From positions 1 to 63,242 of the forward strand of contig CALMOE010000288.1 of assembly GCA_937871715.1 (NCBI GenBank): a DNA stretch of 63,242 bases, read 5' to 3'. The notes under the pieces were generated by a model. The model searched no databases. It saw only the letters and a program-made list of their open reading frames with translations, and was not told where the DNA came from. Each line of letters opens with the position of its first letter. Position 1 is the first letter of the stretch. The translations under genes and the position numbers were made by a program. Positions 19,995 through 39,994 of this stretch are shown in pieces. The stretch comes from an uncultured Geobacter sp. (GTDB lineage Bacteria; Desulfobacterota; Desulfuromonadia; Geobacterales; DSM-12255).

Positions 19995-20016
19995 TTGATT
20001 GAATAAGAGGAAGTCA

Positions 20017-20325
20017 ATGCAAGCACAGAAGATAAGAATTCGTCTCAAGGCCTACGATCACAGGCTCCTCGATCAGTCAGTAACAGAAATTGTTGATACA
20101 GCGAAGAGGACAGGGGCACGCATTGCCGGGCCGATCCCTCTGCCGACAGTGATCAACAAGTACTGTGTACTCCGTGGACCTCATGTTGACAAGAAGTCCC
20201 GTGAGCAGTTCGAAATACGTACTCACAAGCGACTGATCGATATTCTGGATCCAACCCAGCAGACTGTCGATTCGCTCATGAAGCTCGACCTCTCCGCTGG
20301 TGTGGATGTTGAAATCAAGCTTTGA
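20017..20325 (+). CDS. rpsJ: 30S ribosomal protein S10
   Basis: S10 is a 102-residue small-subunit protein and the NusE partner of NusG in antitermination. From ATG 20017 it begins [21 protein letters not shown] lies 6 bases upstream. The open frame extends 18 bases further upstream but without a proper start. It is first in the S10 operon, only 22 bases after tuf. Confidence 0.97.
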
Positions 20326-20358
20326 TCGAAGAACTCACAAGAATAGGATTTATTGACC

Positions 20359-20994
20359 ATGAAGAAGGGACTTATAGGCAAAAAATTAGGAATGACGCAA
20401 ATCTTTGCAGAAGATGGCCGTCGCATTCCTGTTACGGTTGTTGAAGCAGGCCCTTGCGTTGTACTGCAGAAGAAAACTGCCGAGAAGGATGGCTACAATG
20501 CCGTTCAGGTGGGCTTCATGGCAGTAGAATCTGTCAAGGCAAACAGACCGGCAGTAGGTCATGCTAAGGCCGCAGGCAAGGGTACTTTCAGGTATCTGAG
20601 AGAGTTCAAACTCGATAACTGCGATGATTATGCAGTGGGGGATGTCATCAGTGCAGAGCTCTTTACTGCAGGTGACATAATCGACGTAACCGGTGTGAGC
20701 ATCGGTAAGGGCTTCCAGGGTGTTGTAAAACGCTGGGGATTCAAAGGGGGCCGCTCAAGCCACGGTTCTACCTTCCATCGTGCTCCTGGCTCCATTGGCT
20801 GTTCTGCAACTCCGTCCCGCGTTTTCAAGAACAAGAAGATGCCGGGTCAGCTTGGCAACGAGAAGGTAACTGTGCAGAAGCTTACCGTTGTCAGGGTAGA
20901 TGCCGCGGACAATCTCATCCTCGTCAAGGGCGCGTTGCCGGGGGCCAAAAACGGTCTGGTCGTTCTCAAGGACAGTGTAAAGAAAAAGGGTTAA
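20359..20994 (+). CDS. rplC: 50S ribosomal protein L3
   Basis: L3 is an early-assembly protein of the large subunit, 211 residues from ATG 20359 ([16 protein letters not shown]). The loop reaching the peptidyl-transferase centre contains [25 protein letters not shown]-like sequence. A TTG six bases earlier is too close to the GGA ribosome-binding site. Confidence 0.97.
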
Positions 20995-21018
20995 ACAACT
21001 CCCTAATTGGAGATGAAG

Positions 21019-21642
21019 ATGGCAACAATAGATGTTTTTGATCTGAATAAATCCAAGGTCGATGAAATGAGCATCAGTGACGATGTGTTCAACACTGACG
21101 TTCGTGAATATCTGATCCATGAAGCAGTAAAAATACAGCTTGCAAATAGAAGAGCAGGGACTGTTGCCGTTAAAAACAGGGCCGCTGTATCCGGGGGGGG
21201 CAAGAAGCCCTATCGCCAGAAGGGAACTGGTCAGGCACGTCAGGGTTGTATCCGGGCTCCCCATTACCCAGGTGGTGGTGTTGCATTCGGGCCTCAGCCT
21301 AAAGTCTACAACCTCTCAATGAACAAGAAGGCCAGGAAGGTTGCCATAAGGTCTGCTCTCTCTCTGCTTTACAAGGGTGACAGGATCACTGTGGTCAATA
21401 ACTTTGACCTTGAAAAGATATCCACAAAATCTTTCGCCGGCGTTCTGAGCAAGTTTGAACTTGCAAAGGCTCTTCTTGTCATCGGTTCAGAGAACAGAAA
21501 CCTTGAACTGTCCGCGCGCAATATAAAAAATGTCAAGGTTCTTAAGGCTGATGCTCTGAACATCTTTGATGTAATGAAATATCAGCACATCATGATGACT
21601 CAGGATGCAGTTAAGAAAGTTGAAGGAGCGTTGACTGTATGA
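21019..21642 (+). CDS. rplD: 50S ribosomal protein L4
   Basis: L4 lines the exit tunnel and in some bacteria autoregulates the S10 operon. It is 207 residues from ATG 21019 ([13 protein letters not shown]), with GGAG 6 bases upstream. The tunnel loop contains [15 protein letters not shown]. Its stop overlaps the rplW start by four bases (ATGA), indicating translational coupling. Confidence 0.97.
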
Positions 21643-21923
21643 ACATCTATGACGTTATAAAAAAACCGGTAATAACCGAAAAGTCCACTCTTGAAAAAGA
21701 TGCTCGCAATGTTGTTACCGTATCTGTAAATCCGTCAGCAAACAAGATTCAGATTAAGGAAGCCGCAGAAAAGCTCTTCAATGTGGAAGTCAAATTTGTC
21801 AGGACAGTGAATGTAGCTGGCAAAGTGAAGAGGGTCGGCAGGAATATAGGTAAAAGGTCAAACTGGAAAAAGGCCTACATTACCCTGAATGCAGGCAGCA
21901 ATATAGATTTTTTTGAACTGTAA
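21639..21923 (+). CDS. rplW: 50S ribosomal protein L23
   Basis: L23 sits at the tunnel exit and is the docking point for trigger factor and SRP. It is 94 residues, beginning [16 protein letters not shown], with [17 protein letters not shown] towards the C-terminus. It overlaps the end of rplD. Confidence 0.97.
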
Positions 21924-21945
21924 ACAACCACTGGAGTAACTAGCT

Positions 21946-22770
21946 ATGGCAATAAAGACATATAAGCCCACTTCTGCCGGACGTAGACATCAGACATGTT
22001 CAACATTCGACGAGATTACTACCGCTAAACCGCAGAGGTCACTTCTGGTCTCCTTGAAGAAGACTGGTGGTAGGAACAGCTTCGGTAGAATAACGGCCCG
22101 CCACATAGGCGGCGGTCACAAGCAAAAGTACAGGATAATCGATTTTAAGCGCGACAAGGTAGATATCCCTGGCAAAGTTGCTTCGATCGAGTACGATCCC
22201 TATCGTTCAGCCAGAATCGCGCTCATCAACTATGTTGATGGAGAGAAACGCTACATTCTTGCTCCTTCTGAGCTGGCCGTAGGTAGTATTGTTATGTCCG
22301 GTGTCAATGCAGACATCAAGCCCGGTAATGCACTGCCTCTCAAGGCGATCCCACTTGGTACGATCATCCACAATGTGGAAATGAAGATTGGCAAGGGAGC
22401 CCAGCTCGTGAGGAGCGCCGGAGTGTTTGCCCAATTGATGGCCAAAGACGGCAAGTATGTCCAGGTTAAGCTTCCCTCTGGTGAAGTTAGAATGATCCTT
22501 CAGGATTGCATGGCAACCATTGGTCAAGTTGGTAATCTAGACCATGAAAAGGTTTCCATAGGCAAGGCGGGCAGATCAAGATGGCTAGGCCGCAGACCCA
22601 AGGTTCGCGGTGTGGCAATGAACCCTGTCGATCACCCCCATGGTGGTGGTGAGGGTAGGACTTCAGGCGGTCGTCATCCTGTGACACCTTGGGGTATTCC
22701 GACCAAGGGTTACAAGACCCGTAAGAATAAAGTTTCTACTCGGTTTATCGTTAAACCACGCACAAAATAA
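21946..22770 (+). CDS. rplB: 50S ribosomal protein L2
   Basis: L2 is needed for subunit joining and peptidyl transfer. It is 274 residues, begins [16 protein letters not shown], and keeps the catalytic-centre segment [19 protein letters not shown] with the conserved histidine. GGAG stands before ATG. Confidence 0.98.
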
Positions 22771-22789
22771 ATATTAAGAGGGTTAATAA

Positions 22790-23068
22790 ATGGCACGGTC
22801 AGTAAAAAAGGGCCCATTTGTAGATGATCATTTGCAGAAGAAGGTGTCCGACCCCGCAACTTCCAAGGGGCTAATAAAGACTTGGTCTCGCAGGTCCACC
22901 ATAACTCCTGATTTCATTGGACTTTCATTTGCCGTGCACAACGGCAAGAAATTCATACCGGTATTCGTTACGGAGAACATGGTAGGGCACAAACTCGGTG
23001 AATTCTCACCTACCAGGACTTTTCACGGACATGCCGCTGACAAGAAAAGCAAGCTAAAAAAGAAGTAA
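22790..23068 (+). CDS. rpsS: 30S ribosomal protein S19
   Basis: S19 is a 92-residue small-subunit head protein that pairs with S13. It begins [15 protein letters not shown] and contains [26 protein letters not shown] precedes ATG. It lies between rplB and rplV in the standard S10 order. Confidence 0.98.
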
Positions 23069-23087
23069 GGTTGAAAGGAGCAGATAA

Positions 23088-23423
23088 ATGGAAGCTCAAG
23101 CTAAACTCAAATCAGTGAGGCTGTCCCCCAGGAAAACACGTCTCATTGTTGATATGGTTCGCGGCCTGAATATTCAGAACGCACTCAATATATTGAATTT
23201 CTCCCCGAAGCCATCTGCGAAGATAGTTGCAACACTGCTGAAGTCGGCAGTAGCCAATGCTGAGCAGAAAGGCCTTTCGGATGTAGATTCGCTTTATGTA
23301 AAAACCATTTTTGTCGATGGTGGCGCTGTCCTCAAAAGGTTTGTACCACGTGCCCAGGGTAGGGCAAGCAAGATTCGCAAGCCGACTAGCCATATAACAG
23401 TAGTCCTTTCCGATAAAAGATAA
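23088..23423 (+). CDS. rplV: 50S ribosomal protein L22
   Basis: L22 is an exit-tunnel protein of 111 residues. VRLSPRKTRLIVDMVRG is near the N-terminus, and the long beta-hairpin contains RFVPRAQGRASKIRKPTSH. AAAGGAG precedes ATG by 7 bases. Confidence 0.98.
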   Translation: MEAQAKLKSVRLSPRKTRLIVDMVRGLNIQNALNILNFSPKPSAKIVATLLKSAVANAEQKGLSDVDSLYVKTIFVDGGAVLKRFVPRAQGRASKIRKPTSHITVVLSDKR

Positions 23424-23450
23424 TAAATTACCGCTAGCTGGAGGTGTAGT

Positions 23451-24083
23451 TTGGGTCAGAAAGTAAATCCGGTCAGTTTCAGACTCGGAGTAATTAAAAC
23501 CTGGGATTCGAAATGGTACGCAAAGGCAGGTTATTCGGCCCTTCTTCATGAAGATCTTAAGTTGCGTGAATTCCTGAAGAAACGTTTGCACCATTCCGGT
23601 GTTTCTAAGATTGAAATTGAGCGGGCTGCAAACAAGGCAAAAATCAACATATTTACAGCACGCCCCGGCTTGATCATCGGTAAGAAGGGGTCTGAAGTAG
23701 AAACCCTGAAGAAAGATCTTGCTAAATTAACAGATAAAGAGATCTTCTTGAATATACAGGAAGTTAGGAAGCCGGAGCTTGATGCTCAGCTTGTTGCAGA
23801 AAGCGTCGCTCTTCAGCTTGAAAGACGTATCGCATTTCGTCGCGCTATGAAGAAAAGCGTTACTTCTGCGCTGAAGTTCGGCGCAAAGGGGATCAGGATT
23901 ACCTGCTCCGGACGTCTTGGTGGTGCTGAAATGTCCAGGACTGAGTGGTATAGGGAAGGTCGCGTACCCCTTCACACACTGAGGGCAGACATTGACTATG
24001 GTTTTGCAGAAGCAAAGACCACTTATGGGATAATTGGAGTTAAAGTGCTGATATTCAAGGGAGAAGTTCTCCCCGGGCAATAG
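23451..24083 (+). CDS. rpsC: 30S ribosomal protein S3
   Basis: S3 is part of the mRNA entry tunnel. It is 210 residues with [13 protein letters not shown], the KH-type motif [14 protein letters not shown], and [24 protein letters not shown]. The start codon is TTG at 23451 behind GGAGG. Confidence 0.97.
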
Positions 24084-24101
24084 AAACAGGAGCTTTTCAT
24101 T

Positions 24102-24524
24102 ATGTTGATGCCGAAAAGAGTAAAACATAGAAAACAGATGAAGGGTAGGATGACCGGTTCTCCGGATCGCGGTGTATCCCTTTCTTTCGGTCAATTCGGA
24201 CTTCAGGCAACAGAGTGTTCTTGGTTGGATTCGCGTCAGATTGAGGCAGCTCGTATTGCCATGACACGTTACATCAAGCGGGGCGGCAAAATCTGGATAC
24301 GTGTATTCCCAGACAAACCCCTGACTGCTAAGCCGGCTGAAACCCGTATGGGAAAGGGCAAGGGGTCTCCCGACTCCTGGGTGTGCGTTATAAAGCCTGG
24401 GCGTATCCTCTATGAAATGGAAGGTGTAACCGAGGAAGTCGCAAGGGAAGCATTCCGTCTTGCAGCCCATAAGCTCCCTATGGGGACTAAATTTGTGACG
24501 AGGGACGAGTCCAATGAAGGTTAG
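24102..24524 (+). CDS. rplP: 50S ribosomal protein L16
   Basis: L16 is a 140-residue protein near the A-site tRNA and begins [19 protein letters not shown] is nine bases from the first ATG. A second ATG two codons later would also serve. The gene overlaps rpmC by 11 bases, which implies coupled translation. Confidence 0.97.
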
Positions 24525-24702
24525 TGAACTGCGTAAGTTGAGTCAAGAGGATCTGGCTGCCAAGACAGTCGAGCTGGAAAAGGAACTTTTCAATCTTAAG
24601 TTTCAGCTTCATACCGGTCGTCTTGAGAATACTGCAAAAATGAGTGCAGTGCGTAAGCAGATTTCTCAAGTCAAAACATTAATATCAGAAAAACAGGCTT
24701 AA
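24514..24702 (+). CDS. rpmC: 50S ribosomal protein L29
   Basis: L29 is a small coiled-coil protein at the tunnel exit, 62 residues, with the family signature [17 protein letters not shown]. It starts inside the end of rplP. Confidence 0.96.
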
Positions 24703-24713
24703 AGGGGTAACTG

Positions 24714-24959
24714 ATGCGTGAGCGTGGTCATAGAAAAACTCAGATAGGTGTGGTCGTAAGCGACAAGATGGATAAGACAGTCGTAGTTAAAGTAGACCGC
24801 ATCATCAAGCATCCCGTTTACAACAAATACATCAAGCGCTCTGCCAAGTATAAGGCGCACGACGAAGAGAACAGATGTAAAGAGGGTGATCGGGTACAAA
24901 TAATTGCCTCTAGGCCTTTGAGCAAGGACAAGTGCTGGAAAGTCAGCCAGATACTATAA
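24714..24959 (+). CDS. rpsQ: 30S ribosomal protein S17
   Basis: S17 is an OB-fold assembly protein of 81 residues. It begins [22 protein letters not shown] and contains [26 protein letters not shown] precedes ATG. Confidence 0.97.
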
Positions 24960-24985
24960 GCACGAAAATAACGTAGGAGTATGCA

Positions 24986-25354
24986 ATGATACAGATGCAG
25001 ACGCTGCTCGATGTAGCAGATAATTCCGGTGCCAAGAAGCTTTTTTGTATAAAAGTGCTTGGCGGATCAAAGCGCAAATATGCAAGCATCGGAGATATTA
25101 TTGTTGCCTCGGTTAAAGAAGCCCTCCCAAATTCGAAGGTGAAAAAGGGTGATGTAGTTAAGGCAGTCATAGTAAGGACTGCCAAGGAAATCGGTAGGGT
25201 AGACGGATCCTATATAAGGTTCGATGGTAACTCTGCAGTTGTTATCAACAACCAGCAAGAGCCCGTTGGTACTCGTATTTTTGGCCCTGTCGCCCGCGAG
25301 TTAAGGGCTAAGAAATTTATGAAAATAATTTCTCTGGCTCCTGAAGTACTTTAA
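24986..25354 (+). CDS. rplN: 50S ribosomal protein L14
   Basis: L14 is an intersubunit-bridge protein of 122 residues. [18 protein letters not shown] is followed by [20 protein letters not shown] and [12 protein letters not shown] precedes ATG by 6 bases. It is the first gene of the classical spc group here. Confidence 0.98.
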
Positions 25355-25369
25355 TCGTAAGGAACTATC

Positions 25370-25696
25370 ATGCAAACAAAGAAAATTCATGTCAAACGCG
25401 GTGACATTGTCTTTGTAACAACAGGCAAGGACAGGAATAAGACTGGCAAGCTGTTAAAGGTGGACGCTGGTAAAAACGGCGTTATCGTTGAAGGTGTAAA
25501 TGTTGTCAAGAGGCACAACCGTGCTCGCGGCAATCAGCCTGGAGGCATAGTCGAGAAGGAAGCACTGGTACACCTGTCCAATGTAATGCTCTTTTGTGCA
25601 AAGTGCCAGAAACCGGTTCGTGCAAAGATTTCCGTGCTTGAAGATGGCAAGAAAGTTCGTCTTTGCAAAAAGTGCGGAGAATCGTTCGATAATTAA
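25370..25696 (+). CDS. rplX: 50S ribosomal protein L24 with zinc-ribbon tail
   Basis: L24 initiates large-subunit assembly. It is 108 residues with an N-terminal KOW motif ([18 protein letters not shown]). Its C-terminus has CAKC and CKKC pairs (C76, C79, C99, C102), a zinc-ribbon extension that occurs in part of the family. Confidence 0.97.
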
Positions 25697-25708
25697 CAGG
25701 AGGAATAG

Positions 25709-26248
25709 ATGGCCAGGCTTAAGGACATTTATATAAAAGAAATAGTTCCAAAACTTATGAAGGACTTCAATTATGAATCCATAATGGAAGTTCCCAGGAT
25801 TGAAAAAGTCGTTCTTAACATGGGGCTTGGCGAAGCTATCCAGAATGTGAAGATATTGGATTCTGCCGTAGAGGAACTTGGTCTGATTACTGGTCAGAAA
25901 GCAGTTATCACTAAGGCGAAAAAATCCATTGCAACCTTCAAGCTGCGTGAAGGGATGCCTATCGGCGCAATGGTTACACTTCGCAAGGAGCGGATGTATG
26001 AGTTCCTTGACAGGCTTATGAATATATCACTCCCCCGTGTACGAGATTTCAAGGGTGTGTCTGCTAAGGCATTTGACGGTAAGGGAAACTACTCCCTTGG
26101 TGTCAAAGAGCAGCTTATCTTCCCGGAGATCAATTACGATAAAATCGACAAAATCAAAGGGATGAACATAACTATAGTGACAACAGCCAAGACAGACGAA
26201 GAAGGTCGGGCTCTTCTCAAGTATATGGGCATGCCATTCAGGAATTAA
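25709..26248 (+). CDS. rplE: 50S ribosomal protein L5
   Basis: L5 binds 5S rRNA and contacts P-site tRNA. It is 179 residues with [17 protein letters not shown] at the start and [20 protein letters not shown] in the middle. AGGAGG precedes ATG. Confidence 0.98.
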
Positions 26249-26265
26249 GGCATTCGGAGGATTTT

Positions 26266-26451
26266 GTGGCTAAAACATCGATGATTATCAAGGCTAAGCG
26301 TGGTAATAAGTTCAAGGTTCGCGAGTATAACCGTTGCCCACTCTGTGGTCGTCCTAGAGCATACTACCGCAAATTCGACATGTGTCGCATATGTCTGCGT
26401 AAATTAGCATCAGCTGGCCAGTTGCCTGGCGTTATCAAATCCAGCTGGTAA
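26266..26451 (+). CDS. rpsN: 30S ribosomal protein S14, zinc-binding short form
   Basis: S14 of the short type is 61 residues with C24, C27, C40 and C43 (CPLC, CRIC) as zinc ligands. It begins at GTG 26266 behind CGGAGG. This is the ancestral zinc form, not the longer zinc-free form of enterobacteria. Confidence 0.97.
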
Positions 26452-26482
26452 CAATGACAAAGGTCTAGAGGAGTAAGAATAA

Positions 26483-26881
26483 ATGAGCATGACAGATCCG
26501 ATAGCAGACCTGCTTACTAGGATTAGAAATGGCGCCATGGCCAAACTCCAGAAAGTGGATATTCCTTCGTCCAACATGAAGGTGGGGATAGTTAATGTCC
26601 TGAAGAACGAAGGTTTCATAAAGAACTACAAGGTAATATCCGATCAAAAGCAGGGAGTTCTGCGTATATACCTTAAGTATATCAATGAGAATGAATCTGT
26701 TATTACAGAAATCAAGCGCGTCAGCAAACCAGGTGGTCGCCGTTATGTAAAAAGCAGCGAGATCCCCAAGGTAAAGCATGGTCTTGGCGTGGCAATTCTT
26801 TCTACATCAAAGGGATTATTAACTGATAAGGTTGCTAGGGAAGCTGGAGTTGGCGGCGAGCTTATCTGCACAGTATGGTAA
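26483..26881 (+). CDS. rpsH: 30S ribosomal protein S8
   Basis: S8 is a central-domain assembly protein, in other bacteria the translational repressor of the spc operon. It is 132 residues, [17 protein letters not shown] at the start and [21 protein letters not shown] at the end. A second ATG two codons in is an alternative start. Confidence 0.98.
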
Positions 26882-26902
26882 CAAGCTCTAAGGAGATGAA
26901 GG

Positions 26903-27442
26903 ATGTCAAGGATTGGAAAACAACCCATAGAAATTCCGAGTGGCGTTAAAGTTACAGTTGATAATCTTCTTGTTACTGTCAACGGCCCTAAAGGAACTCT
27001 TTCCCGCAATATACTTGATGTTGTGTCAGTGGATCTTACAGACAAGTATCTTACGGTCAACAGGACAGATGACAGCATAAAGTCTAGATCTGCTCACGGC
27101 TTGACGAGAACGCTGATCAACAACATGGTTACCGGCGTAACAAAAGGTTTTGAAAAAGCTCTCGAAATTAATGGCGTTGGTTATCGTGCAGAGATCAAAG
27201 GTGACGTGCTTGCTATGAGCCTTGGATATTCGCATCCCATTAACTATCAGTTGCCAAAAGGGATCACAGTAGAAGTGGATAAAATGACCAAGCTTGTTGT
27301 GAAGGGTATTGACAAGGAGCTTGTTGGCCAGACTGCCGCTAAAATCAGAGACTTCAGGGGGCCGGAGCCCTATAAAGGCAAGGGTGTGAAGTATGCTGAT
27401 GAAGTCATTCTGCGTAAGGCCGGCAAAACCGGTAAAAAATAG
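26903..27442 (+). CDS. rplF: 50S ribosomal protein L6
   Basis: L6 has two repeated domains and lies near the sarcin-ricin loop. It is 179 residues, [17 protein letters not shown] at the start and [19 protein letters not shown] near the end. AAGGAG precedes ATG. Confidence 0.98.
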
Positions 27443-27464
27443 GTAAATCCTAAGGAGAAGCACG

Positions 27465-27833
27465 GTGAGCAATAATAAATCAAAAAATGATGCCCGCCTG
27501 AAAAGACAAATGCGAGTTCGCAAAAAGGTCAGGGGTACATCCGAGCGTCCCCGCCTGAATGTTTTTAAGAGCTCAAGGCACATACATGCTCAGATAATTG
27601 ATGATACGACAGGCACAACTCTGGTGTCAGCATCTACAATTGCAGCAGATGTCAAAACTGCTCTTGATTATACGGGTAATGTTGAGGCTGCCAAGGCTGT
27701 GGGTGCTGCTATTGCAAAAAAAGCTCTTGAAAATGACATCAAAACTGTCGTTTTTGACAGAAACGGGTTCTTGTACCACGGCAGGGTAAAAGCTTTGGCG
27801 GAAGCCGCACGTGAAAATGGTCTTTCGTTCTAA
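27465..27833 (+). CDS. rplR: 50S ribosomal protein L18
   Basis: L18 binds 5S rRNA. It is 122 residues with a basic N-terminal tail, [20 protein letters not shown] and [21 protein letters not shown]. It starts with GTG at 27465 behind AAGGAG. Confidence 0.97.
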
Positions 27834-27853
27834 AGGTATATAGGAGGTTGTCC

Positions 27854-28342
27854 TTGTTAAAGCTGAACATAAGTGAACTGAATCTTACTGATCGTGTTGT
27901 CCACATCAGCCGTGTTGCCAAGGTAGTTAAGGGTGGCCGTCGTTTCAGCTTCTCCGCGCTTGTCGTTGTCGGCGACGGCAACGGGGTGGTTGGCTATGGT
28001 CTGGGCAAAGCAAATGAAGTGCCTGAGGCTATTAGAAAAGGCGTGGAGCAGGCCAAGAAGAATCTTATCCGCGTACCTATGGTAGAAGGGCATACTATCC
28101 CTTATGACGTAAAGGGTCATTTTGGTGCTGGTCGTGTACTCATGATGCCTGCATCAGCTGGTACCGGTGTGATCGCAGGCGGTGCTGCCCGTGCTGTATT
28201 CGAATCTGCCGGCATTCAGAACATTCTCGCTAAATGTCTCGGTTCGAACAATCCTCATAACGTGATCAAGGCTGCTTTCGACGGTTTGAAGCAGCTTCGC
28301 AGTCCTGAAGAGATAATTGCTCGTCGTGGTATTGTTGAATAA
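27854..28342 (+). CDS. rpsE: 30S ribosomal protein S5
   Basis: S5 is important for decoding accuracy, 162 residues from TTG 27854. It has [20 protein letters not shown] and [17 protein letters not shown] two codons earlier touches the AGGAGG ribosome-binding site, so the later TTG with six bases of spacing is preferred. Confidence 0.96.
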
Positions 28343-28362
28343 TATAAGTTCAGGAGCAGAAA

Positions 28363-28542
28363 ATGGCTGAAAAGCTGACGATTACATTGGTAAAGAGTCC
28401 AATCGGAAAACCCGAAAAACATAAACTGGTTCTGCAAGGGTTAGGCTTGAACAAGTTAAATAAAAGCGTGACCCTGGATGACACCGCACAGGTTAGAGGG
28501 ATGATCAACAAGGTCTCCCATCTTCTAAAAGTAACCGATTAA
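28363..28542 (+). CDS. rpmD: 50S ribosomal protein L30
   Basis: L30 is a 59-residue protein, [20 protein letters not shown], ending HLLKVTD. It has the short bacterial L30 fold without extensions. AGGAGCAGAAA precedes ATG. It lies between rpsE and rplO in the usual order. Confidence 0.96.
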
Positions 28543-28560
28543 TTATCTCTGGAGATAGAT

Positions 28561-29001
28561 ATGCAACTGAATTCTATAAAGCCAGCAATAGGTGCTGCCA
28601 AAAATAGGAAAAGAATCGGCAGAGGCCCAGGATCAGGGCATGGCAAAACAGCAACTAAAGGTCACAAAGGGCAAAAAGCTCGTTCCGGCGGAAGTATAAA
28701 GCCTGGTTTCGAGGGTGGTCAGATGCCTATGCAGCGTCGTCTGCCTAAGCGTGGCTTTGAGCCTCTTAGCAGAAAAGAGTTTGTGGCGATCAATATAGAG
28801 CAGCTTAACATGTTTGAAGCCGGTTCTGTAGTTGATCCTGCCGCAATTGTAGCAAAAGGGCTTGTCAGCAATATACGTGACGGCATCAAAATTCTTGCCA
28901 AAGGATCTATCACAAAGGCTCTTACAGTCAAGGCACACAGATTCAGCGCATCTGCCAAGGATCAGATTGTAGCCGCAGGTGGTACAATAGAGGAGATATA
29001 A
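28561..29001 (+). CDS. rplO: 50S ribosomal protein L15
   Basis: L15 is a late-assembly protein of 146 residues. The Gly/Lys-rich N-terminal extension includes GRGPGSGHGKTATKGHKGQK, and the core has MPMQRRLPKRGF. The gene ends one base before the secY start codon. Confidence 0.98.
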   Translation: MQLNSIKPAIGAAKNRKRIGRGPGSGHGKTATKGHKGQKARSGGSIKPGFEGGQMPMQRRLPKRGFEPLSRKEFVAINIEQLNMFEAGSVVDPAAIVAKGLVSNIRDGIKILAKGSITKALTVKAHRFSASAKDQIVAAGGTIEEI

Positions 29002-29002
29002 C

Positions 29003-30310
29003 TTGTTCGAAGCCCTGCAGAACATCTTCAAGATCCCAGAACTAAAAAAAAGGGTTATGTTTTCACTCGGGATGCTTTTTGTGTACCGGGTTGGTTGTCA
29101 TATCCCCACTCCAGGTATTGATGGTGTAGCGCTATCTCATTTCTTCAAGCAAGCTCAGGGCACCCTGCTTGGAATGTTTGACATGTTTTCCGGTGGAGCA
29201 TTGGAAAAGCTCACAGTGTTTGCTCTCGGAATCATGCCATACATTTCATCTTCTATTATTTTTCAATTATTGACCGTTGTCGTCCCGGCGATTGAAAAAT
29301 TGTCCAAGGAAGGCGAGTCAGGCCGCAAAAAAATCATTCAGTATACTCGCTACGGCACTGTAGTCCTCAGCGTGGTCCAGGCAATGGGGATCAGCATTGG
29401 CCTGGAAGCTATGCGTGGTCCTGCCGGTGAGTTGGTTGTACCTAATCCCGGTTGGTCTTTCAGGTTGCTGACGGTAATAACCTTGACCGCAGGGACTGCC
29501 TTCATCATGTGGCTCGGCGAGCAGATGTCCGAGCGCGGCATTGGCAACGGCATCTCCTTGATAATTTTTGCGGGTATTGTCGCAAGAATCCCATCTGCAA
29601 TAGGCAATACCTTGAAGCTGCTGAAAACGGGTCAGCTTTCACTTTTTGTGTTGATATTCGTTTTCGCAGTAATGTTCCTGGTAATAGCCGGAATTGTTTT
29701 TGTCGAGAGAGGTCAACGGCGTATCCCTATCCACTATGCGAAGCGTGTTGTTGGTTTACAGACCATGGCTGCACAATCATCCCATCTGCCGCTGAAAGTG
29801 AACATGGCCGGTGTCATACCTCCAATTTTCGCATCTTCTATCATCATGTTCCCGGCAACGATTGCAAACTTTGTCGATGTCCCGTGGGTAAAGGGATCTG
29901 CTAAGTACCTGATGCCTGGCAACTGGGTCTATAATGTTATTTTTGTTGCATTCATAGTCTTTTTTTGCTATTTCTACACGGCTGTTACTTTTAACCCTAT
30001 CGATGTGGCTGAAAATATCAAGCGCCATGGTGGGTATATACCAGGCGTTCGTCCCGGGCAGGAGACATCCGCTTATCTGGATAGTGTTCTAACTAAGCTA
30101 ACTTTTGCCGGGGCAATATATATTTCTCTCATATGTGTTCTGCCGTCCATTTTGATAGGCAAGTTTAATCTGCCTTTCTATTTTGGTGGCACTGCACTAC
30201 TTATTGCCATTGGTGTGGGTATGGACACCGTTGCCCAGATTGAGTCCCATTTGATAACCAGGAGTTACGAGGGGTTCATGAAGGGTGTGAAAATCAAGGG
30301 CAGATCCTAG
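29003..30310 (+). CDS. secY: Preprotein translocase subunit SecY
   Basis: SecY forms the protein-conducting channel in the inner membrane. It is 435 residues with about ten membrane spans. Signatures are GIMPYISSSIIFQLL and KEGESGRKKIIQYTRYG. The start is TTG at 29003 behind AGGAGA, one base after the rplO stop, implying coupling. Confidence 0.97.
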   Translation: MFEALQNIFKIPELKKRVMFSLGMLFVYRVGCHIPTPGIDGVALSHFFKQAQGTLLGMFDMFSGGALEKLTVFALGIMPYISSSIIFQLLTVVVPAIEKLSKEGESGRKKIIQYTRYGTVVLSVVQAMGISIGLEAMRGPAGELVVPNPGWSFRLLTVITLTAGTAFIMWLGEQMSERGIGNGISLIIFAGIVARIPSAIGNTLKLLKTGQLSLFVLIFVFAVMFLVIAGIVFVERGQRRIPIHYAKRVVGLQTMAAQSSHLPLKVNMAGVIPPIFASSIIMFPATIANFVDVPWVKGSAKYLMPGNWVYNVIFVAFIVFFCYFYTAVTFNPIDVAENIKRHGGYIPGVRPGQETSAYLDSVLTKLTFAGAIYISLICVLPSILIGKFNLPFYFGGTALLIAIGVGMDTVAQIESHLITRSYEGFMKGVKIKGRS

Positions 30311-30321
30311 GCGGGTGTGTT

Positions 30322-30966
30322 TTGAATCTTATTCTTTTGGGGCCTCCGGGGGCCGGTAAGGGTACCCAGGCAAAATTCATAGTTGAGAAATACGGTATTC
30401 CGCAAATATCAACTGGCGATATTTTGCGCCATGCCGTAAAGGAGCGCTCGGAGCTCGGTCTTAAGGCTCAGGCATACATGGAGTCAGGTGCTCTTGTGCC
30501 AGATGATCTGGTAGTGTCTATCATTCGTGACAGGCTGACCTGGGGTGATGCAGCGAAAGGCTTTATTCTGGACGGTTTCCCTCGTACGGTAGCCCAGGCT
30601 GATGCTCTGGCGGTTATGCTGTCTGGCGCTTCAATGGCAATAGATCATGTTGTTTCCATTACGGTGTCTGTGGACGAGTTGGTGGAGAGGGTCGTTGGCC
30701 GGTTGACCTGCAGGGGGTGTGGTCGGGGGTATCACCTCAAGTTTGATCCGCCAAAAACAGCATCGGTTTGCGATGTCTGTTCTGCTGATCTTTATCAGCG
30801 TGAGGACGACCGCGAGGAGACCATGCGTTCCAGACTTGATGCATATGCTGCCCAGACGGCTCCTCTCATAGAGTATTACGCTGCAAAGGGTTTGCTTCGT
30901 CCGATACATGGAGTCGGTTCGATTCAGGAAATCCAGTCTGCAATAAGCTCTGTGCTGGCAGGTTAG
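30322..30966 (+). CDS. adk: Adenylate kinase with zinc-binding lid
   Basis: Adenylate kinase interconverts ATP, ADP and AMP in the cytoplasm. It is 214 residues. The P-loop GPPGAGKGT is at residues 7-15, DGFPRT follows, and the long LID holds C130, C133, C150 and C153, a structural zinc site. It starts with TTG at 30322 with only a weak ribosome-binding site, 11 bases after secY. Confidence 0.97.
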   Translation: MNLILLGPPGAGKGTQAKFIVEKYGIPQISTGDILRHAVKERSELGLKAQAYMESGALVPDDLVVSIIRDRLTWGDAAKGFILDGFPRTVAQADALAVMLSGASMAIDHVVSITVSVDELVERVVGRLTCRGCGRGYHLKFDPPKTASVCDVCSADLYQREDDREETMRSRLDAYAAQTAPLIEYYAAKGLLRPIHGVGSIQEIQSAISSVLAG

Positions 30967-30969
30967 TTT

Positions 30970-31716
30970 TTGATAGTCCTTAAGTCTCCGGCAGAGATAA
31001 AGAGGATGAGGGTAGTCTGCAGTATGGTAGCCGAAGTCCTGCAGGCTGTTGCGGCGGCTGTGAGGCCAGGTGTAACAACTCTTGAGCTTGACCGTATGGC
31101 AGAGGCCGAGGTGCTGAAGCGCAAGGCAAAGCCTGCTTTCAAGGGGTACAGCGGTTACCCATACTCCTTGTGTTGCTCTTTGAATGACCAGGTTGTTCAC
31201 GGTTTTCCGGTTGCCTCGCCTCTTAAGGAAGGTGATCTGCTCAGCTTGGATTTCGGAGCATATTATGATGGCTTCTACGGCGACGCGGCCGTCACGCTCC
31301 CTGTTGGCACTGTGTCAGCATCAGTACTGCGGTTGATATCTGTTACCGAGGAGTCGCTCAGGCAAGCTGTAGAGTCCGCCGTTGTGAATGGCAGGTTGGG
31401 TGACATCTCTTCAGCAGTTCAGAGACATGTGGAGGCCAACGGCTACTCTGTTGTTCGTGATTTTGTCGGACATGGCATAGGTAGAAAGCTGCATGAGGCG
31501 CCACAGGTTCCCAATTACGGCGTGTCCGGCAGAGGGCCAAAGCTGAAATCGGGCATGGTGTTGGCAATAGAGCCGATGGTCAACGAGAAGTCATATGAGG
31601 TAAAGGTGCTTGAAGATGGCTGGACAGCTGTTACTGTGGACGGTTCACTGTCAGCGCATTTCGAGCATACGGTAGCTATTACGGATAATGGTCCAGAAAT
31701 ATTGACAAGCATCTGA
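30970..31716 (+). CDS. map: Methionine aminopeptidase, type I
   Basis: This enzyme removes the initiator methionine from nascent proteins. It is 248 residues. The five metal ligands are visible: two Asp in [16 protein letters not shown], His in [14 protein letters not shown], Glu in AIEPMV and Glu in FEHTVAI. It starts with TTG at 30970, three bases after adk ends. rpmJ follows directly, with no infA between. Confidence 0.96.
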
Positions 31717-31738
31717 ATACGACTTGAAGGGATTGAAA

Positions 31739-31852
31739 ATGAAGGTACGGGCATCTGTTAAAAAAATCTGCGACAAATGTAAGATTGTTAAAAGAAAAGG
31801 TATTGTCAGAGTAATCTGTGACACGCCTAAGCACTCACAACGTCAGGGTTAA
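31739..31852 (+). CDS. rpmJ: 50S ribosomal protein L36 (zinc form)
   Basis: L36 is a 37-residue protein, [20 protein letters not shown]. The zinc ligands are C11, C14, C27 and H32. GAAGGGATTGAAA precedes ATG. It begins the alpha-operon group rpsM-rpsK-rpsD-rpoA-rplQ. Confidence 0.96.
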
Positions 31853-31878
31853 GAGAAAGAATCGGGAGGGAGTTAACA

Positions 31879-32247
31879 TTGGCACGCATATCTGGCATAG
31901 ATATACCTAAAAACAAGCATATAGAAATTGCATTGACTTATATATACGGTATCGGCAGGTCAACTGCGCAGAAGATTCTTCTTGAGTCTAATGTTGATTT
32001 CAACACGAGGACTGAGAAGCTTACCGAAGCTGAAATCGCACGCATCAGGGAAGTTATTGACAAGAATTATAAGGTAGAGGGTGATCTCCGTCGTGAAATC
32101 TCTATGGATATCAAGCGCCTTATGGATCTTGGTTGTTACCGCGGCCTCCGGCATCGTAAGGGGCTTCCCGTACGTGGCCAAAGAACCAAAACAAATGCTC
32201 GTACACGTAAAGGCCCTGCTAGAACCGTTGCAGGCAAGAAGAAATAG
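31879..32247 (+). CDS. rpsM: 30S ribosomal protein S13
   Basis: S13 is an intersubunit-bridge protein of the 30S head, 122 residues. It has [20 protein letters not shown] and the basic C-terminal [20 protein letters not shown]. It starts with TTG at 31879 behind GGGAGGGAG. Confidence 0.97.
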
Positions 32248-39073: not shown

Positions 39074-39102
39074 TTGACTGTTGCAGCCTGTTGGAGTATT
39101 TA
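39074..39102 (+). promoter_or_regulatory. Sigma-70 promoter of the riboswitch transcript
   Basis: TTGACT (39074-39079), a 17-bp spacer and TATTTA (39097-39102) place the transcript start about 20 bases before the riboswitch aptamer. Position and spacing agree with a riboswitch-led message. Confidence 0.7.
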
Positions 39103-39129
39103 AAGTGGAAAAATAGGCTTCTGGATAGA

Positions 39130-39200
39130 CGACAATACTAAACCATCCGCGAGGGTGGGGCGGAAAGCCCACGGGTCTCACGCAGACAGCCGGGTTGCCG
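39130..39200 (+). ncRNA. GEMM-I riboswitch, probable cyclic AMP-GMP class
   Basis: The RNA matches the GEMM-I (cyclic di-GMP-I) aptamer. A closing helix pairs 39130-39135 with 39195-39200 (one mismatch). Stem CCATCC/GGGTGG is capped by a GCGA tetraloop (39149-39152). The receptor GCGGAAAGCC follows, then a stem GTCT/AGAC and the 3' signature AGCCGGGTTGCCG. A39137 stands where the Vibrio Vc2 RNA has G20, the ligand-contacting base. An A there is typical of the Geobacter GEMM-Ib group that prefers cyclic AMP-GMP. The base alignment was done by eye. Confidence 0.85.
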
Positions 39201-39236
39201 AAATATCATCATGATATCTGGCACCCGGCTTTTTTG
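39188..39236 (+). terminator. Riboswitch expression-platform terminator
   Basis: AGCCGGGT-TGCC (39188-39199) pairs with GGCACCCGGCT (39220-39230) with one bulged T, an inner ATATCA/TGATAT stem, and a T6 run. Its left arm is also the 3' part of the aptamer, so ligand binding and termination exclude each other. This implies gene activation by ligand. Confidence 0.85.
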
Positions 39237-39331
39237 TGTTTTGAACTGGCATAAAGGCCGGGTGTGAAGAAAAGGCAGGAGGGGAGATCCCCCTTACCTT
39301 GTCACATCCCGTTATGCAGAAAGGAGCTTTC

Positions 39332-39922
39332 ATGAAGCGCATTGCAGTAGCAGTTGCTTGTCTGGCCATGCTGGGGTTGCCCCTGGTCCAGTCTGCCTCC
39401 GCAGAGGTCAACGTAAATGTCAACGTGGGGGTGCCGGTCCCTCCATTGCCGGTTCCCCCCCCACTAGTCCTGCCGGCCCCCCCTGAGTTCATCCTCCCCC
39501 CCTCCCTGGGAGTATATGTCGCCGTAGGCGTGCCACAAGACCTCTTCTTCATCGGAGGGAACTACTATCTCCACAAGGACAGAGGTTGGTACAGGGGGCG
39601 CTACTACAATGGCCCATGGGTCATGGTGGAGCGTGAACATCTCCCCCCCGGTCTGCGTAGGCACAAGTTCGAGCGGATTCGCCATTTCCGTGATGAGGAG
39701 TACCGCCGATACCGTGACGAGCATGAACACTACCGCGGCCGCCACTTCAGACCCGACAAGGAGTGGAAGGAGGAGCGCAAGGAGCGGCACAGGGAAGAGA
39801 AGGCGTGGCACAAGGAGGAGAAGGAGCGCCGCAAGGAGGAGCGTAGGTACGAGAAGGAGGAGCGGAAGCATGACAGGGGGGAAGGGCGCGGCCATGGCAG
39901 GCGCGGCGACCGGGACGGCTGA
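39332..39922 (+). CDS. Secreted protein with highly charged helical C-terminus, riboswitch-controlled
   Basis: This 196-residue protein has no assigned function. MKRIAVAVACLAMLGLPLVQ-SASAEV is a clear Sec signal peptide. A VNVNVNVGV and Pro-rich segment follows, then a Tyr/Trp/Gly core (GGNYYLHKDRGWYRGRYYNGPW). The last 90 residues are almost only Arg, Lys, Glu, His and Asp in short i/i+4 alternation, which could form a single stable helix. ATG 39332 has AAAGGAG five bases upstream. The gene lies directly behind the GEMM-I riboswitch, which in Geobacter often governs extracytoplasmic proteins. Confidence 0.8.
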   Translation: MKRIAVAVACLAMLGLPLVQSASAEVNVNVNVGVPVPPLPVPPPLVLPAPPEFILPPSLGVYVAVGVPQDLFFIGGNYYLHKDRGWYRGRYYNGPWVMVEREHLPPGLRRHKFERIRHFRDEEYRRYRDEHEHYRGRHFRPDKEWKEERKERHREEKAWHKEEKERRKEERRYEKEERKHDRGEGRGHGRRGDRDG

Positions 39923-39957
39923 TCCATCCCCACATGGTTTGCCGAGATGAGGCTGAT

Positions 39958-39994
39958 AAGGGCTGTCTTCCGCTGGAGGGCAGCCCTTAATGTT
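39958..39994 (+). terminator. Probable terminator after the riboswitch-controlled gene
   Basis: AAGGGCTG (39958-39965) pairs with CAGCCCTT (39981-39988), and further inner pairs (CTTCC with GGAGG) are possible. AATGTTTTG follows, a weak T-tract. Confidence 0.6.

Follow-up and report, generated by a model that had tools for sequence, protein, structure and literature searches.

A predicted GEMM-Ib riboswitch upstream of an exported-protein gene in an uncultured Geobacter

Which signal governs the gene of a small exported protein in this Geobacter genome, and what can the type of control tell about a protein without known relatives? The window, that is, the whole stretch of 63,242 nucleotides analysed here, is one contig (C288) from a draft genome of 3.4 Mb with a completeness of 97%. 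We find that the leader of the gene is very probably a GEMM-Ib riboswitch which acts on transcription as an ON switch and governs the exported-protein gene. This class was reportedly described in 2015 in papers by Kellenberger and by Nelson, and the present RNA is therefore unsurprising. The kind of riboswitch is already known; what is new here is its target, a protein which belongs to no known family and whose gene has kept an A20 aptamer across two families. The features of the locus are as follows.

39074–39102, plus strand: putative sigma-70-type promoter, TTGACT and TATTTA separated by 17 bases (sequence reading; conservation of TTGAC)
39127–39202, plus strand: aptamer of the GEMM-I family, A20 (GEMM-Ib) type (RF01051 match; covariation)
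39137, plus strand: A at the equivalent of Vc2 G20, the reported specificity position (alignments)
39164, plus strand: equivalent of A47, which stacks between both ligand bases in known structures (alignment)
39198, plus strand: equivalent of C92 (C75 of pilM), which pairs with the G of the ligand; in the terminator fold it is paired with G39221 instead
39188–39235, plus strand: intrinsic terminator, hairpin 39188–39229 followed by six T at 39230–39235 (folding); its 5′ arm is the 3′ strand of aptamer P3/P1
39321–39326, plus strand: Shine–Dalgarno sequence AAGGAG (sequence reading)
39332–39922, plus strand: gene of a 196-residue exported protein with signal peptide, beta domain with WYRGRYYNGPW and charged C-terminal helix
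39957–39989, plus strand: terminator-like hairpin 3′ of the gene, suggesting a one-gene transcript

The aptamer, its pocket and the likely ligand

The original prediction had placed a GEMM-I riboswitch in front of the gene. A cmscan search with the covariance model of this family (RF01051, c-di-GMP-I) bears out the assignment, as the match at 39127–39202 on the plus strand reaches 50.0 bits where the gathering score is 35 (E = 8.7e-07, computed for the window). In an alignment of the aptamer with 14 GEMM-I RNAs, ten from its own genome and four from relatives, 94.9% of the cells are paired and 12 pairs are changed on both sides, which was equalled by none of 500 shuffles; since the aligned RNAs were retrieved with a structure-based model, this result is biased towards structure. 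The compensatory changes place the RNA in the GEMM-I three-way fold of P1, P2 and P3, and the pair 39138–39163, which adjoins the pocket, alternates between C-G and G-C among the aligned RNAs.

Three bases of the pocket, A39137, A39164 and C39198, are the equivalents of G20, A47 and C92 of the Vc2 RNA. The column of A39137 is a G in the Rfam consensus. Within the genome we count 11 GEMM-I RNAs, the present one and ten others; three have a G in this column and eight an A, the present one and seven of the others. The claim that an A here replaces the G which contacts cyclic di-GMP in Vc2 holds at the level of the sequence. With the A20 equivalent present and the equivalents of A47 and C92 retained, this is, judged by its sequence, the pocket of the published cyclic AMP-GMP (GEMM-Ib) riboswitches of Geobacter.

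On the short stretch alone the variant class c-di-GMP-I-GGC (RF03167) scores slightly higher than RF01051 (53.8 bits), and one might therefore assign the RNA to this class. The score is however under the gathering threshold of 59 for RF03167, whose consensus has G at the equivalents of positions 20 and 47 where our RNA has A at both, so that its pocket reads A/A/C rather than G/G/C. We reject this assignment as very improbable and retain the GEMM-Ib reading.

The A20 aptamers of this genome precede two operons of the pilM type, in these cases with a small helix-turn-helix gene between, the genes of a lipoprotein-like protein, of a CxxCH protein and of two further exported proteins, and the gene at 39332–39922. 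Both pilM-type operons have nearly identical A20 aptamers, and the pilM-type aptamer L010 is about 95% identical to the present one. Before the gene of the CxxCH protein, an exported protein of 403 residues with two CxxCH motifs, two A20 aptamers, L004 and L008, are arranged in tandem with one terminator each (C221:7451-7660). As a further observation on the window itself, the region from about 20000 to 32000 has a GC content of 45–48% and a raised GC skew, compared with about 60% GC in the right third, and was possibly acquired horizontally.

Can the host make the ligand? A serine in the GGDEF domain defines the Hypr cyclases (PMC6456294). We found about 20 GGDEF matches in the genome, most with the canonical aspartate. 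Two genes encode the Hypr-type serine, a Rec-GGDEF protein on contig C129 (GHLIGS, GGDEY) and a GAF-GGDEF protein on contig C95 (GHLVGS, GGDEF). The best PDB match of the GGDEF domain from C129 is 6d9m, GacA of G. metallireducens, with 243 bits, the next chain scoring 152. The C129 protein, which has the diagnostic serine, is thus an apparent orthologue of GacA, the known cyclic AMP-GMP cyclase, and a ligand-making enzyme is probably present.

For the aptamer of Gmet_0970, an A20G exchange is reported to turn a preference for cGAMP into one for cyclic di-GMP (PMC6456294). In G. sulfurreducens, however, the omcST riboswitch is reported to respond to cyclic AMP-GMP and cyclic di-GMP alike, so that position 20 by itself is no guarantee of selectivity (PMC6456294). 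It is conceivable that the present RNA is the same ON switch but is dual-specific like omcST, or is driven by cyclic di-GMP in the cell, and the many GGDEF proteins with canonical aspartate would suit such a switch. We regard this as unlikely because the aptamer fits the A20 class in its pocket and over nearly its whole length, and because A is constant in the 18 aptamers found with this gene family, though G20 aptamers are common elsewhere in the lineage. The predicted cyclic AMP-GMP type is supported by the pocket, the apparent GacA orthologue, the pilM-type A20 aptamers and the conserved linkage to the gene (see below); the selectivity for this ligand is a prediction.

Expression platform and proposed mechanism

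The promoter is present in the sequence as predicted, with TTGACT at 39074–39079 and TATTTA at 39097–39102. By itself the match to the consensus is not above chance, as 225 of 500 shuffles were as good; each of the 17 homologous loci that we examined, however, has a TTGAC in a comparable position before its aptamer, and this conservation supports the promoter.

The 130-base leader folds with −47.5 kcal/mol (z = −3.26; none of 200 shuffles as good) and the stretch 39190–39240 with −19.7 kcal/mol (z = −3.48). As had been proposed, the terminator makes use of the aptamer: the 3′ strand of P3/P1 is the 5′ arm of the terminator and the two folds are mutually exclusive. For the transcript up to position 39236 the computed energy is −45.6 kcal/mol with the terminator compared with −23.1 kcal/mol when the aptamer is enforced, where both values exclude the ligand and tertiary contacts. 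In folding of the nascent leader C39198 pairs with G39221 from about position 39222 onward, and even for the transcript that ends with the aptamer an alternative pairing is predicted as preferred. In its anatomy, the leader thus has the expression platform of a GEMM-Ib riboswitch, a terminator which excludes the aptamer. In the pilM riboswitch of G. metallireducens, G102 of the terminator sequesters C75 and cGAMP blocks the terminator, which makes it an ON switch (PMC9262584). Since the terminator described here, which is a strong one, likewise reuses the 3′ strand of the aptamer and buries C39198, ligand binding should permit transcription. The anatomy is that of the pilM riboswitch, and the ON logic is therefore the best-supported reading.

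Could the leader be decayed or constitutive, that is, a relic of an aptamer with a terminator which no longer responds to a ligand? The leader comes from one genome and a draft assembly. Nevertheless the aptamer, the terminator with its T tract, the ribosome binding site and the TTGAC box are intact and are kept in the homologous leaders, and the compensatory changes are retained, which makes decay hardly credible.

Between terminator and start codon the stretch 39240–39331 has a long hairpin of its own (−32.6 kcal/mol, z = −2.33). It could provide additional control, outside the explanation given here. We do not count this hairpin as part of the conserved unit, as homologous leaders with a short spacer, such as L041, leave no room for it. 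A match to mir-5391 at 39253–39316 is far below its cut-off and is a hairpin look-alike.

We suggest that an intact ON riboswitch of the GEMM-Ib class would work in the following steps. RNA polymerase would start near position 39109 and make the aptamer first. The ligand, 3′,3′-cyclic AMP-GMP, would then lie between A39137 and C39198, and A39164 would stack between the two ligand bases, as homologous structures suggest. The GacA-like Rec-GGDEF protein would be the source of this signal, possibly together with the serine-type GGDEF protein encoded on C95. With the ligand bound, the 3′ strand of P3/P1 would stay in the aptamer, the terminator could not form and the exported-protein gene would be transcribed. 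When the ligand is absent, the terminator, which by the computed energies is far more stable, would capture C39198 and transcription would stop at the T tract. The product would be a protein exported by the Sec pathway, most likely belonging to the surface and electron-transfer regulon.

The exported protein and its conserved leader

The gene starts with the ATG at 39332 and its stop codon ends at 39922. The encoded protein begins with a signal peptide and has a proline-rich segment, a domain around WYRGRYYNGPW which is predicted to be rich in beta structure, and at its C-terminus a long helix with a very high content of charged residues. It had been described as an exported protein without known family, and this description holds: we found no match in Pfam, NCBIfam or the PDB sequences, and the AlphaFold model (mean pLDDT 67, five sequences) has no Foldseek match in the PDB below E = 0.001. 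As the sequence and Foldseek searches are empty, we claim no molecular function. The gene is probably transcribed alone because the terminator-like hairpin at 39957–39989 comes after it; the next gene on the same strand codes for a methyltransferase of the PCMT family.

Homologues of the exported protein occur in 104 of the 114 genomes of the order. To search for linked aptamers we used a covariance model (R1) which was built from the aligned aptamers. Within the family of the present genome, the aptamer precedes the homologous gene in this genome itself, in a genus-mate and in three further genomes, and in the genome G010 it lies before a distant paralogue. Homologues with about 40–50% identity in G002, G003, G010 and G012, also of this family, have no aptamer. 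In a second family (f3) all 11 tested loci have the aptamer before the homologous gene, and in a third family (f4) none of 12. The equivalents of A20, A47 and C92 are all present in the 18 linked aptamers, two of which (L012 and L039) belong to identical leader sequences and probably come from one genome counted twice. In eight further genomes of f3, inspected by coordinates, such an aptamer always lies upstream of a homologue and on its strand; the distance to the match is 223–334 bases in four of them and about 2.0–2.2 kb in the other four, with another gene in between in the two distant loci that we read. With about 15 such aptamers in 4.7 Mb, a given gene would have one within the 400 bases before it by chance with a probability of about 0.0006. 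Among the sampled GEMM-I RNAs of the relatives, a sample which favours high RF01051 scores, G20 is commoner than A20; the constant A at the exported-protein gene is thus not simply background.

Two arrangements at related loci deserve mention. In G010 (L053, on contig C76) an A20 aptamer lies directly before the distant paralogue, which is about 34% identical, and a closer homologue in the same genome has no riboswitch; the switch may have moved between paralogues. In the genus g14 (L150 and L151) an A20 riboswitch is followed by the gene of a PAS-GGDEF protein, which has the canonical aspartate (GHEVGD), and then by the homologue of the exported protein. Cyclic AMP-GMP may here control a cyclic di-GMP enzyme.

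For a protein that can otherwise not be placed, it is a strong clue that its gene has stayed linked to a switch for a second messenger. We tentatively propose, as a possibility and not as the expected outcome, that the cyclic AMP-GMP regulon has an unrecognised core member in the WYRxRxYNGPW family with its charged C-terminal helix, that this riboswitch has controlled it since before the two families of the order split, and that it helps the cells to attach to extracellular surfaces or to transfer electrons there. Since the linkage is conserved across related species, the protein is a reasonable candidate for deletion tests in the metal respiration of Geobacter.

The GEMM-I RNAs of the relatives also include mixed tandem arrays (L055–L061, L064, L065, L076, L083, L119, L126 and L128), in which one or two A20 aptamers are followed by a G20 aptamer 77–182 bases further on. 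The A20 aptamer, of the cyclic AMP-GMP type, precedes the G20 aptamer, of the cyclic di-GMP type, in every mixed array seen, and the arrays often lie before genes of fibronectin-III-like exported proteins. L064, L076 and L061 have a terminator at the first aptamer, and after the second a hairpin which pairs the Shine–Dalgarno region; this suggests a two-signal gate combining transcriptional and translational control. A mixed pair of A20 and G20 is absent from Table 2 of PMC9481103, and these arrays may be a more novel lead than the riboswitch described here. Several G20 RNAs have an altered base at the equivalent of C92, which pairs with the ligand: U in L062, L067, L070, L074, L114, L124 and L125, G in L080, L116, L119, L122 and L128, and A in L126. 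Altered ligand specificity is possible, as are slips of the alignment.

Comparison with known riboswitches

With the c-di-GMP-I riboswitches of the Vc2 type, the main class of RF01051, our RNA has in common the overall fold, the conserved core and the Rfam family, but it has an A where these have a G at the position-20 equivalent. The backbone is also similar to that of the c-di-GMP-I-GGC class, whose cut-off is however not reached and whose pocket bases differ.

A hypothetical gene of G. sulfurreducens, GSU1018, is under GEMM control (PMC10599522). Upstream of the hypothetical gene KN400_1038, strains that had been growing on electrodes for 17 years had a mutated GEMM riboswitch (PMC13194489). 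As here, a GEMM-I RNA lies before a functionally uncharacterised gene; one or both may be the counterpart of the exported-protein gene.

The closest likeness is to the GEMM-Ib riboswitches of Geobacter, Gs1761 (pgcA), Gm0970 and pilM. These precedents control cytochrome or pilus genes, whereas the present target is a small exported protein; the leader after the terminator is longer here and the ligand response is predicted. They share with our RNA the aptamer family, the A20, the host lineage, a terminator over the 3′ strand of the aptamer and the ON logic.
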